Assembly: GCF_027604915.1 (NCBI RefSeq)
Contig: NZ_JAJAQC010000035.1
Span: 1 to 64,000, forward strand
Length of the DNA stretch: 64,000 bases
From: Streptomonospora mangrovi
Lineage (GTDB): Bacteria > Actinomycetota > Actinomycetes > Streptosporangiales > Streptosporangiaceae
Reading direction: 5' to 3'
In this document: positions 1-6,124 of the stretch, piece by piece
Numbering within the stretch: position 1 is the stretch's first letter
Layout: the number at the start of each line of letters is the position of its first letter
The notes under the pieces: generated by a model
Told to the model about the DNA's origin: nothing
What the model saw: only the letters and a program-made list of their open reading frames with translations
Databases searched by the model: none
Position numbers and translations under genes: made by a program

Positions 1-1923
<1,923 letters not shown>

Positions 1924-1989
1924 GCGGAGCCAGCGGTGTGAGAGGAGTGAACGGAGTGAGCCGAGCGGCGTGAGCCGCCGGTGAACGCC

Positions 1990-2013
1990 GGGTCCGTCCT
2001 TCGGGGCGGACCC
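1990..2013 (+). terminator. Hairpin downstream of the cellulase
   Basis: GGGTCCGTCC and GGGCGGACCC pair around a TTCG loop with one wobble. It lies 67 bases after the cellulase stop and has no U tract, as is common in actinomycetes. Confidence 0.5.
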
Positions 2014-2151
2014 GGCCACCAGGTCGCCGACCGCGCGGAGCCGCACCGGCGCGCGCCGCCCCAGGTAGGAGCCCTCTTGGCCCGGAGGCCATGACGCCGA
2101 CCCGCCGCCGGACTAGCGTCCATGCCGACACCCCTGCACCTGGAGGTCACC

Positions 2152-2289
2152 ATGGGCGACCACGGCAATCCCGACAAACCCCAAGACACCCATCCCGGGT
2201 CCGACCGCGACGGCCAGAAACCGCCCCGCCACGGCACCGGGGAACCCATCCCCGACCAGGGCGGCGACGGCCAGCGGCCGGGTCAGTGA
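2152..2289 (+). CDS. 45-residue hydrophilic peptide, candidate RiPP (imiditide-like) precursor
   Basis: A short ORF starting ATG 2152, nine bases after a CTGGAGG ribosome site, ending in a TGA that overlaps the GTG of the methyltransferase (GTGA). The peptide is rich in Gly, Pro, Asp, Gln and charged residues and has no hydrophobic or signal segment. It carries Asp-Gly pairs (SDRDGQK and GGDGQ) and DHG, the kind of site where a PIMT homologue can form aspartimide. Third codon positions are mostly G or C, which supports translation. It is the only partner of the methyltransferase; no LanB/LanC, ATP-grasp or protease gene lies nearby. The precursor role is inferred from coupling and DG motifs. 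A plain leader peptide is the alternative. Confidence 0.55.
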   Translation: MGDHGNPDKPQDTHPGSDRDGQKPPRHGTGEPIPDQGGDGQRPGQ

Positions 2290-3470
2290 CCGCCCCGCCG
2301 CCGGGGCTCGCGCTGGCCCGCCTCCTCGCCGCCAAGGGCGCCGTCCAGGACCCCGCCTGGCACCGCGCCGTCCTCGCCGTGGACCGGCTCGCGTTCATCC
2401 CCGACACGGTGTGGGTCCCCGACCCCGACAACCCCGGTTGGGACGTCCCCGTCACCTCCGACGACCCCGACTACCACCGCTGGGCCGCCGACGACTACGC
2501 GCTGGTGACCCAAGTGGACGACGGCCACCCCACGGGGTCTGAGGGCCGGGGGCGGGTCCCCTCCTCCAGCATCTCCCAGCCCTCCCTCGTCATGGCGATG
2601 CTCCAGGCCATGGACGTCCGCGACGGCGACACCGTGCTGGAGATCGGCACCGGCACCGGCTACAGCACCGCCCTGCTGTGCGAGCGGCTGGGCAACGAGA
2701 ACGTCGTCTCCGTCGAGGTGGACCCCGGCGTGGCCGAGCGCGCCCGCGCGACCCTGCACGGGTTCGGCTACAAGCCCCGGCTGGTCGTGGGCGACGGCGC
2801 CCACCCGCCCGAGGGGGTGTACGACCGGGTGATCGCCACGGTCGCCGCCCGGCGCGTCCCGGGGGCGTGGATCGCCCAGACCCGGCCCGGCGGCACGGTC
2901 GTGATCCCGTGGGGGCCGGGGTTCACCTCCGCCGGGCTGCTGCGCCTGGCGGTCGGCGACGGCATGGCGCAGGGCCGGATGATCGCCGACGCCGCGTTCA
3001 TGTGGCTGCGCGACCAGCGGCGCTCCGCCGACCCCTGGCACACCTTCGTGGACGAGCACGACCCCGCCACCGTGGCCGGGCACACCCGCCTGAACCCGCG
3101 CGTGGTGGCCGACCGCGACCCCGGCTGGGGGGTGGTTTTGGGCTGGCGGGTGCCCGGCCTGGCCTACGCCTCGTTCGAGGCCGACCCCGACAACCACGCG
3201 GCGGCGGGCGAGGCCACCGTCTACGTCTACGACCGCGACGGCTCCTGGGCGCTGGGCGAGTACGTGCCCGCCGGAGAACCCTACGAGACCCTGCGGGCCG
3301 GGCCGCGCGACCTGTGGGCCGAGATCGCCGCCGCCCGTGAGGTGTGGCGCGCGGCCGGGGCGCCCGGCCGCGACCGGCTGGGGCTGACCGTGACGGCTGA
3401 GGGGGAGCACACGCTGTGGGTGGACACCCCCGGGCACGTGATCGAACCGGGCCCGCTCGGCGGCGGCTGA
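2286..3470 (+). CDS. PIMT-like SAM-dependent methyltransferase
   Basis: About 394 residues. The N-terminal half is a protein-L-isoaspartate O-methyltransferase (PCMT) fold: SSSISQPSLVMAM, the SAM-binding VLEIGTGTGYSTALL, the acidic VSVEVD strand end and a GVYDRVIATVAA strand. A further 180 residues follow, much longer than repair PIMT (about 210 residues). Such extended PIMT homologues occur with RiPP precursors (imiditides, FxLD-type lanthipeptides, fuscimiditide-type graspetides). The GTG start is chosen because it overlaps the stop of the upstream peptide and because residues before it look non-coding. It probably methylates an Asp in the coupled peptide. A housekeeping repair role is less likely given the extension and context. 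Confidence 0.8.
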   Translation: MTAPPPGLALARLLAAKGAVQDPAWHRAVLAVDRLAFIPDTVWVPDPDNPGWDVPVTSDDPDYHRWAADDYALVTQVDDGHPTGSEGRGRVPSSSISQPSLVMAMLQAMDVRDGDTVLEIGTGTGYSTALLCERLGNENVVSVEVDPGVAERARATLHGFGYKPRLVVGDGAHPPEGVYDRVIATVAARRVPGAWIAQTRPGGTVVIPWGPGFTSAGLLRLAVGDGMAQGRMIADAAFMWLRDQRRSADPWHTFVDEHDPATVAGHTRLNPRVVADRDPGWGVVLGWRVPGLAYASFEADPDNHAAAGEATVYVYDRDGSWALGEYVPAGEPYETLRAGPRDLWAEIAAAREVWRAAGAPGRDRLGLTVTAEGEHTLWVDTPGHVIEPGPLGGG

Positions 3471-3522
3471 GGTCCGCGACCCGCCCCGAGGTAGCCCTCG
3501 GTGCCCCGTCGCCTCCACCGCC

Positions 3523-4683
3523 CTAACGGGTGCTGCGGCGCATCAGCCACAGGAAGAACGGCGCTCCGCACAGCGCGGTGAGGATTCCCACGGGGATCTC
3601 CTCGGGCCGGGCCAGGGTGCGGGCCGCCAGGTCGGCCAGGATCATGAAGGACGCGCCGATCAGGACCGCCACCGGCAGGGTGCGCCGGTGGTCGGGACCC
3701 ACGAGCATGCGGGCGATGTGGGGCGTCATCAGCCCGACGAACCCCACCGGGCCGCTGACCGCCACCAGCACGCCCGTGGCCAGCGAGGTCACCACGAACA
3801 TGGCGGCGCGGAACCCGTTGACCCCCAGCCCCACCCCGGTGGCGGTCTCCTCGCCCAGGGCGAACACGTTGAGCGCCGGGGTCTGCGCCGCGATGACCAG
3901 GGTGCAGACCGCCACGGCCGCCGCCGGTGCGGGCAGGGTGGCCCACGTGGTGCCGCCCAGCCCGCCCAGGGTCCAGCGCTGCACGAGGGTGGCGGCGTGG
4001 GGGTCGCCCGAGGTCATGATGGCCAGCGCGGCGGCGGCCGCCAGCACCTCGGCCATGACCACCCCCGAGAGGATGAGCCGCAGCGTGCTGATCCGGCCGC
4101 CGGTGCGGGCCAGCACGTAGACCGCGACCAGGGCGGCCAGCGCGCCCACGAACGCGGTGACCGGCAGGGACGCGCCGCCGAACAGGCGCACGCCGAACAC
4201 CGCGACCACCACCGCGCCCAGGGTCGCGCCCGATGACACCCCCAGCAGCAGCGGGTCGGCCAGCGGGTTGCGCACCAGGGTCTGGAGCACCAGCCCCACC
4301 CCGGCCAGGCCCGCGCCCACCAGCGCGGCCAGCAGCACGCGGGGCAGGCGCGCCGTCACGACGATGGCCTCGGTGGCGGGCGGCCAGGTGGGCGTGACCA
4401 GGCCGGGCGCCGCCTGGTGGAGGAGGATGCGCCAGGTGTCGGCGGCCGAGACGCCGACCGAGCCGACGCCCACACCCAGCGTCGCGGCGAGGGGCAGCGC
4501 GGCCAGCAGCAGCGCCAGCGCCACCGGCAGCGGGACCCGGCCGCGCCGACGGCGGGACGCGGGCGGGCGCTCCCGGCGGTCCGGGCGGTCCTGGGCGCCC
4601 GCCGCGTCGGGCGGGGCGGGTGCGGCGCGCGGTGCGGCGCGGGTCTCAGGAGTGTCGTCGGAGGTCTCGGAGGTCTCGGCCAT
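3523..4683 (-). CDS. btuC: BtuC/FecCD-type ABC permease, probably for cobalamin
   Basis: A polytopic membrane protein of 386 residues. After a 50-residue Pro/Arg-rich cytoplasmic head come about nine to ten hydrophobic segments and the family signatures: LPRVLLAALVGAGLAGVG, the NPLADPLLLGVSSGA stretch, and GPVGFVGLMTPHIARMLVGPDHR near the C-terminus, which contacts the ATPase. It lies four bases after the binding-protein gene. The family imports corrinoids or ferric siderophores; the cobalamin riboswitch in the leader makes corrinoid the better guess. No ATP-binding subunit follows: the next gene is convergent. Confidence 0.9.
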   Translation of the reverse strand: MAETSETSDDTPETRAAPRAAPAPPDAAGAQDRPDRRERPPASRRRRGRVPLPVALALLLAALPLAATLGVGVGSVGVSAADTWRILLHQAAPGLVTPTWPPATEAIVVTARLPRVLLAALVGAGLAGVGLVLQTLVRNPLADPLLLGVSSGATLGAVVVAVFGVRLFGGASLPVTAFVGALAALVAVYVLARTGGRISTLRLILSGVVMAEVLAAAAALAIMTSGDPHAATLVQRWTLGGLGGTTWATLPAPAAAVAVCTLVIAAQTPALNVFALGEETATGVGLGVNGFRAAMFVVTSLATGVLVAVSGPVGFVGLMTPHIARMLVGPDHRRTLPVAVLIGASFMILADLAARTLARPEEIPVGILTALCGAPFFLWLMRRSTR

Positions 4684-4687
4684 CCCG

Positions 4688-5704
4688 TCAGAACGCCTCG
4701 GGGTGCAACTGCTCGGCGATGCGCGTCACCGCGTCGCCCACCCGGATCCCCACCACGGTGGAGGACAGCGGCAGCTCGGCGAACCGCTCCTCGCGGACGG
4801 CGGGCGCGTGGGCCAGGGCGGGCTGCCCCAGCACCGCGCGGCGCTTGTCCTCGACGGTGGTGGAGCCGTAGTCGTAGAACAGGATCGCCTCGGGGTCGCG
4901 GGCGGCGGCCTGCTCGATGGAGACGTCGGCGAACACGTCGTCCACGTCGGAGAACACGTTGCGCCCTCCGGCGGAGCGGATCATGTCGTCGGCGATCCCG
5001 GCGCCGCCGGAGGTGAAGACGGTGGCGTCGAGGGAGTCCACCACCAGCACGTCCACCGGCTCGACGCCCGCCAGCCGCTCCTCGACCGAGGCGACGTCGG
5101 CCTCGATTCCGGCGATCAGCTCCTCGGCGCGCTCCTCCACGCCGAAGACGCGGCCGATGTTGCGGATCTCGGTGCCGACCGTGTCCATGTCCACGTCGGC
5201 GGCGCACTGCTCGATGGAGGCGTAGGTGGTCATCCCGGCCGCCTCCAGCGCGTCTCGGCCCCGACCCTCGGCGGGGTCGAAGGCGCTGGCGGCGAACCCG
5301 GCGTAGACGAAGTCGGGTTCGGCGGCCAGCAGCGCCTCGTAGGAGGGGTACCGCTCGGCGAGCACGGGAACGGAGTCGTAGGCGTCGCGCAACTCCGGCA
5401 CGATCGCGTCGTCCAGGAAGGCGGTGCCCACCATGCGGTCGGCCAGGCCCAGGGCGAGCATGATCTCGGCGACGTGCTGGTTCATGGCCACCGCCCGCTG
5501 CGGCGGCGCGGTGACGGTGACCTCGCGCCCGCACTCGCGCACGGTCACGGGGTAGCCCTCGGCCGGCGCCGCCTCGGCGGGTCCGCCGCCGGGGGCGCCG
5601 CAGGCGGCCAGGGCGAGGACGGTTCCGGCCACGGCGGCCGACCTGGCCACCCGGCCGGGGCGGGCGGGACCTGTGGAGCGGGGGAATCGAGGGGATGGGC
5701 GCAC
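4688..5704 (-). CDS. btuF: Corrinoid-binding lipoprotein of the ABC importer (BtuF-like)
   Basis: A substrate-binding lipoprotein of about 338 residues. The chosen GTG start has AAGGA eight bases upstream and gives a short basic head, a hydrophobic core and lipobox LALAAC. The mature part is a periplasmic-binding (TroA/BtuF) fold: VTVTAPPQRAVAMN, AEIMLALGLADRMVG, then YPSYEALLAAEPDFVYAG and a C-terminal lobe. It would hold the corrinoid outside the membrane and hand it to the adjacent permease. It is first in a two-gene operon behind a cobalamin riboswitch. A siderophore ligand is the alternative but fits the regulation less well. Confidence 0.85.
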   Translation of the reverse strand: MRPSPRFPRSTGPARPGRVARSAAVAGTVLALAACGAPGGGPAEAAPAEGYPVTVRECGREVTVTAPPQRAVAMNQHVAEIMLALGLADRMVGTAFLDDAIVPELRDAYDSVPVLAERYPSYEALLAAEPDFVYAGFAASAFDPAEGRGRDALEAAGMTTYASIEQCAADVDMDTVGTEIRNIGRVFGVEERAEELIAGIEADVASVEERLAGVEPVDVLVVDSLDATVFTSGGAGIADDMIRSAGGRNVFSDVDDVFADVSIEQAAARDPEAILFYDYGSTTVEDKRRAVLGQPALAHAPAVREERFAELPLSSTVVGIRVGDAVTRIAEQLHPEAF

Positions 5705-5811
5705 GTCTGGTCCTTCCGCGAGGCCGGGCGCGGCCACGGCGCGGCCCGCGGGCGGGGGCTGGGGGCCGCCGGCGCGCTCCGCCTCCGGGGTCCGCGCCCC
5801 TGGGTGACGAG

Positions 5812-5965
5812 TCGCGACGGGTCAGTGTCCTGACTCCCGGATCAGCGCCTGGCCCGGCCTTCCAGCGCACGCGGCGCCGTGGCCGTGAGCGGGTTCGGCT
5901 CCCCGGTCACAGTGGCGGGACCGTGCCGGAGTCCCACCGGCTTCCTGTCGTCCCGTCGCCGTCCC
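5812..5965 (-). promoter_or_regulatory. Cobalamin riboswitch
   Basis: Read on the minus strand, the leader of btuF shows the ordered cobalamin-aptamer marks: GGAAGCCGGTGGGACTCCGG, then GGTCCCGCCACTGTGACCGG (cf. the usual CCCGCAACTGTGA), then the B12 box GAGTCAGGACACTGACC just before 5812. About 110 GC-rich bases able to fold separate the box from the start codon, so either attenuation or start masking is possible. High cobalamin should reduce btuFC expression. Confidence 0.88.
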
Positions 5966-6124
5966 AGGCTAGCGAGCGGCCCATGGCGGCGCGGGCGCGG
6001 GGCAGGGGGCGGCGCCCGCGCCGCTTGACCTCAAGTTAGGTCGAGGATTTATCGTCCGTTCTGTCGCAGGGAGGCGATAGGAACGGCCGTGCGGCGCCGG
6101 ACGACGACGGGATGGGTGGAGCCG

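Follow-up and report, generated by a model that had tools for sequence, protein, structure and literature searches.

Imiditides, or type I pamtides, are RiPPs defined by an aspartimide as the sole modification. Predicted type I pamtides number more than 1,400; two of them, NmaA-NmaM (Nonomuraea maritima) and SpaA-SpaM (Streptomyces sparsogenes), have been characterised, and none has a known function. In this class an Asp side chain is converted to its methyl ester in a SAM-dependent reaction, the next backbone amide attacks the ester with loss of methanol to give an aspartimide, and the aspartimide hydrolyses slowly, mostly to isoAsp, the corresponding mass changes being +14, then -18, then 0 Da (PMC10787088, PMC13001092). 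The PIMTs that act on lasso peptides, graspetides and imiditides have been reported to carry a WxxxGxP motif, and for the characterised imiditides it was proposed that a positively charged peptide pairs with an acidic loop of the enzyme. Here we describe a gene pair in a 64,000-nucleotide stretch of the Streptomonospora mangrovi genome (contig NZ_JAJAQC010000035.1, positions 1 to 64,000; hereafter the window). The pair very probably constitutes a two-gene RiPP operon belonging to the imiditides, or type I pamtides, and by analogy with its characterised relatives it would share their chemistry. This assignment is based on the two-gene layout, the precursor of about 45 residues rich in Gly, Pro and Asp, the single conserved Asp near Pro and Gly, and the C-terminal extension of the enzyme with its WxxxGxP motif. 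The features of the locus are listed in Table 1.

Table 1. Coordinates of the features assigned at the peptide-methyltransferase locus, numbered from the first nucleotide of the window.
Feature	Position	Strand	Remarks
Candidate operator palindrome, TGGCC-CGGA-GGCCA	2078-2091	+	Abuts the -35; position and form conserved upstream of related pairs
Predicted promoter	2091-2119	+	-35 ATGACG (2091-2096), 17-nt spacer, -10 TAGCGT (2114-2119); fixed architecture in relatives
Ribosome-binding site, GGAGG	2142-2146	+	Serves the start at 2152; similar sites before the aligned start in most relatives
Precursor peptide gene	2152-2289	+	45 aa; Cys-free; net charge (K/R minus D/E) -3; alignments, profile search, dN/dS
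Asp20 codon	2209-2211	+	Only residue invariant across the peptide family; predicted site of methylation and aspartimide formation, in D-G-Q-K-P-P-R-H-G
Asp39 codon	2266-2268	+	Second DG site; confined to the longer subtype (alignment)
PIMT-like peptide aspartyl O-methyltransferase (PAMT), predicted	2286-3470	+	394 aa; GTG start overlaps the peptide stop; C-terminal extension with WxxxGxP

The first-pass annotation of this DNA had proposed a 45-residue peptide with Asp-Gly (DG) sites, coupled through GTGA to a PIMT-like methyltransferase about twice the size of repair enzymes, with no other modification gene present, and had taken the pair for a further imiditide member. These proposals held up. 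The peptide ORF translates as MGDHGNPDKPQDTHPGSDRDGQKPPRHGTGEPIPDQGGDGQRPGQ (10 Gly, 8 Pro and 7 Asp), with DG at residues 20 and 39, and its TGA shares the GTGA at 2286-2289 with the start codon of the enzyme. The size estimate was fair (394 residues versus about 205-230 in repair enzymes), the enzyme ORF matches the Pfam PCMT domain with an E-value of 9.5e-25, and none of the adjoining genes encodes another RiPP modification enzyme. Every class-defining genomic feature of imiditides that could be tested is present at this locus. The window pair has no evident leader cleavage site, protease or exporter. An alternative peptide start at 2122, which would give 55 residues, was ruled out because it coincides with the predicted transcription start and the residues that it adds are absent from relatives.

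An AlphaFold2 model of the enzyme had a mean pLDDT of 92.4. The predicted fold resembles PIMT structures with Z of 24-27 over residues of about 3-250, and the alignment with T. maritima PIMT (1DL5) spans 306 residues and reaches residue 381 of the model, inside the C-terminal extension. The extension carries WRAAGAP, which fits the WxxxGxP motif. The genome of the window (G000) encodes 13 PIMT-like homologues (L001-L008, L016-L020), several of them adjoining RiPP genes. Their contexts include type I pairs (L001-L004), ATP-grasp graspetide clusters (L016-L018), FxLD-type enzymes (L019, L020) and a type II-like pair with the Cys-motif peptide MAQCAMCEGTGVVFTTTDGDGKNPWKSTRPVQCPNCKGTGRV (L008).

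The first-pass annotation had also called for homologous coupled pairs to be searched for, and had named relatives with the methyltransferase and no peptide as counter-evidence. The outcome was favourable: of 49 enzymes that share at least 45% identity with that of the window, 45 have an intact coupled peptide of the same family, three a broken one (L039 and L032 are frameshifted, as read by eye, and L065 has a nonsense codon) and one, L059, none. The L059 enzyme, a PAMT 56% identical to that of the window, lacks the promoter element upstream as well as the peptide. L063 (158-4150) contains three tandem PAMT genes, of which the third is coupled to a peptide of the window's family. An enzyme homologue at E ≤ 1e-70 was found in 38 of 299 genomes of the actinomycete family to which the window belongs. 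A scan of genome contigs with the single enzyme sequence returned no relative, and the alignment-based scan returned distant homologues. In a class-wide sample of 395 genomes the peptide family was confined to this same actinomycete family, to which the peptide/enzyme pair is apparently limited.

The pair lies between a GH9 cellulase gene upstream and FecCD and Peripla_BP_2 transport genes downstream on the opposite strand. Beside the sampled pairs we found no recurrent neighbours for export or proteolysis; the only such genes were HTH regulators near some pairs (HTH_3 at L009, L070 and L072; XRE-DUF5753 at L055, L060 and L064). A functional link to FecCD/FecB was considered and dropped, because these genes do not recur beside other pairs and both are missing from the corresponding stretch of genome G002, where the cellulase is followed directly by the ABC exporter of the window and the peptide pair is likewise absent. 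The variable segment spans 1921-6080 in the window, where the pair and FecCD/FecB are located and the cellulase is shorter, and 3956-5125 in L156 of G002, where the frame of the GH9 cellulase continues, by way of a linker, to give a longer C-terminal part. G002 has a pair of its own (L070), located beside the HTH_3 regulator gene on the second of its two contigs (G002:C2, 90 kb), which is possibly a plasmid. As the G002 locus lacks the pair and the pair of G002 sits on its second contig, comparison of these sequences indicates that the pair is accessory. The G003 locus shows synteny with that of the window (89% over about 8 kb); its enzyme is 84% identical, but its peptide, of 26 aa, lacks the segment between the DGQ repeats.

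The 45-aa ORF is not due to chance, since the family HMM finds the peptide adjoining its own enzyme in genome after genome. Used alone on 30 genomes, the peptide profile recovered the enzyme-adjacent peptides and three orphans; in the genomes searched, peptides were about as many as enzymes. The family is rich in Gly (23.9%), Asp (13.2%) and Pro (10.9%) and net acidic (mean charge -2.4). Among peptide pairs at least 70% identical dN/dS was mostly 0.1-0.5, an identity filter that biases the ratio downward, and for the gene of the window against its relatives it was 0.22-0.5. The peptide genes of L002 and L023 differ at about 13 nucleotides, with AGC/TCC serine swaps among the changes, yet encode an identical peptide. 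Judged by dN/dS in pairs of at least 70% identity, the peptides are under purifying selection.

An alignment of 42 paired peptides contained one invariant column, Asp20 (42/42), followed by Gly in 37 and Ser in five. The family core around it is D-G/S-x-x-P-x-x-H-G, the MGxH start is conserved, and M1, G2, H4, D8, D12, H27 and G28 are near-invariant. Two subtypes can be distinguished, a long one, to which the peptide of the window belongs and which has another DGQ towards its end, and a short one that ends in HGGGGEKTG and has no second DGQ; as the second DG is missing from the short subtype, the first is the conserved one. The DG conservation expected by the first-pass annotation was therefore borne out for Asp20, whereas Asp39 is dispensable in the family. 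The peptides of L021 and L029 (26 and 28 aa) lack the part that separates the DGQ repeats and retain a single DG site, which could correspond to site 1 or site 2. The three orphan peptides bear further on Asp20. G005 has no enzyme nearby and reads EWNGRSG for the EWDGQSG of its relatives (Asp20 to Asn), in G145, where enzyme residues 339-393 are all that remains, KDNGSQ stands in place of KDNDSQ (Asp20 to Gly), and G012, with an enzyme cut to residues 6-42, has kept Asp20. Asp20 is missing from two of three orphans but present in all 42 paired peptides of the alignment (hypergeometric 0.003, with sequences treated as independent), which supports Asp20 as the substrate residue, and from these sequence patterns we consider Asp20 likely to be the modification site.

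The same operon could instead act on Asp39, or on both residues, in which case a doubly aspartimidylated peptide would result. Both sites read D-G-Q-x-P, their DGQ stretches form nearly identical direct repeats at the DNA level, and most of the longer peptides have kept the second DG; the site is nevertheless absent from the HGGGGEKTG subtype, and the published systems modify one Asp, so we regard a role of Asp39 as rather unlikely and Asp20 as the preferred site. A different concern is whether the peptide is the substrate at all. The enzyme might have another protein as its main substrate, with the peptide serving as a regulator or decoy, an idea that draws on the several PAMT genes that share the promoter element and have no evident peptide, and on a published review in which the function is left open. 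The tight one-to-one pairing and the loss of the invariant Asp after loss of the enzyme speak against it and make it improbable.

Two other explanations concern the identity of the enzyme, and we consider both very improbable. An ordinary isoaspartyl repair PIMT, expressed from the same message as an unrelated small protein, would agree with the PIMT fold and the Pfam PCMT domain. It would not account for the score against the repair-PIMT equivalog TIGR00080 (72 bits, cut-off 159.05), the C-terminal extension with WxxxGxP, the 13 homologues in one genome, several of them beside RiPP genes, or a peptide Asp that is invariant only while the enzyme is present. The pair might alternatively be what is left of a graspetide cluster after loss of the ATP-grasp ligase, given that the best NCBIfam match of the enzyme is the graspetide methyltransferase TIGR04188 and that one graspetide cluster has the same promoter element. 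However, the TIGR04188 score is 300.1 bits against a cut-off of 380, whereas the L016 enzyme, which adjoins an ATP-grasp gene in the same genome, reaches 455 bits; moreover, no ligase recurs beside the sampled pairs and the peptides form a conserved family of their own. The evidence favours the reading as an imiditide-class operon.

Upstream of the peptide genes we identified a conserved element, present in 37 of 42 upstream regions of related peptides in near-fixed geometry. It consists of a palindrome (family consensus approximately TGGCCG-N4-CGGCCA), then TGACR, then GGTTACCGT, with 17 nt from the -35 to the -10 (TACCGT), and it lies about 30-40 nt before the start codon. The palindrome of the window is among the weaker copies. 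The information content of the element is 31.3 bits versus a mean of 9.5 and a maximum of 10.4 in shuffles, a difference that overstates the evidence because related sequences are not independent. Its unlinked copies in one genome and its occurrence before other gene classes are a stronger argument than this information content. A strict pattern had seven copies in four genomes, six before peptides of the window's family and one before a graspetide precursor and ATP-grasp gene (L192), and the reversed control had no matches. A PWM scan of 2.2 Mb (both strands counted) gave matches of at least 22 bits only at PAMT loci, including copies outside the training set, although the scan is biased in that most of the scanned loci were chosen for carrying PAMT genes; shuffled DNA gave no match of at least 22 bits. 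Copies beyond that at 2078-2119 of the window were recorded at L192 and L199-L248.

A less biased view was provided by running a profile of the element (R1) on 15 whole genomes and reading the best 35 matches. On the window this profile matched 2080-2121 weakly (19.6 bits, E 0.008), in register with the element. Most of the best 35 matches precede the subfamily of the window, and the remaining strong copies are found mainly ahead of other PAMT systems. Matches before other PAMT systems, some of which rank among the weaker ones, include other imiditide types (L231, L239, L245, L248), a radical-SAM/PAMT pair (L229/L251), radical-SAM genes near imiditide pairs (L241, L246) and PAMT genes with no evident peptide (L232, L234, L235, L242, L243, L247). 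At L232, L234, L243 and L247 the PAMT gene starts right after the element, with no recognisable peptide between. At L230, L233 and L238, and at several weaker matches (L236, L237, L240, L244), the stretch read contained no PAMT. This sharing of the element across PAMT systems suggests a shared regulon, and a single regulator may act at the element. In our view there is about an even chance that several imiditide subfamilies, a graspetide, radical-SAM/PAMT pairs and PAMT genes without a peptide form one regulon through this element, that aspartimide/isoaspartate peptides serve a common physiological programme, and that the window pair represents an acidic imiditide subfamily within it.

Taken together, these features lead to the following proposal. 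Both genes would be transcribed from the sigma70-like promoter just upstream, and a regulator binding the palindrome next to the -35 probably controls the operon. The PIMT-fold enzyme would recognise the linear peptide, aided by its extra C-terminal domain, and methylate the Asp20 side chain with S-adenosylmethionine as the donor. Methanol would then be displaced by the backbone amide of Gly21 to form the aspartimide (-18 Da), which would slowly hydrolyse, mostly to isoaspartate; Gly at n+1 should favour both ring closure and hydrolysis. Since the family is net acidic, the charge-pairing model cannot apply unchanged and recognition must differ in detail, and the acidic precursor thus offers a test of that model. 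The subfamily provides an invariant target Asp together with natural cases of decay that tie this Asp to the enzyme, and its conserved promoter is common to other PAMT systems. Its interest is raised by the enzyme-dependent conservation of one Asp and by the element shared across PAMT systems, of which we found no description in the literature searched, including no paper on a promoter common to graspetides and pamtides. If the element is a real operator, its regulator and the condition that triggers it would give a route to the role of aspartimide peptides.

Among known systems the pair most resembles NmaA-NmaM and SpaA-SpaM, with which it shares the two-gene operon, a linear precursor that is rich in Gly, Pro and Asp and has no Cys motifs, a single conserved Asp close to Pro/Gly, and, as the only modification enzyme, a PIMT homologue with a C-terminal extension and WxxxGxP. 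Unlike NmaA and SpaA, which are strongly positive, its family is acidic, the comparison being by description only; a cationic precursor is a property of the characterised imiditides and not part of the class definition. Set against the same descriptions, the family is distinguished by its MGxH start, the D(G/S)xxPxxHG core, the frequent second DGQ and its occurrence in one actinomycete family. Cysimiditides or type II pamtides (FcaA, TceA, NalA) have the same two-gene layout and enzyme family, but their precursors carry two CxxCxGxG zinc motifs flanking the Asp, whereas the window peptide has no Cys. Group 13 graspetides (TIGR04188; fuscimiditide, amycolimiditide) have a homologous methyltransferase, and one of their clusters (L192) the same promoter element, but the window pair has no ATP-grasp ligase among its neighbours and its enzyme scores below the TIGR04188 cut-off. 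The predicted structure of the enzyme has the catalytic fold in common with the canonical repair PIMTs 3LBF, 2YXE and 1JG1 and with T. maritima 1DL5 (Z 26-27), the last of which also has a C-terminal extension; in contrast to repair PIMTs, its equivalog scores are far below the cut-offs, and peptide substrates are indicated by its genomic setting, its paralogy and its motif.
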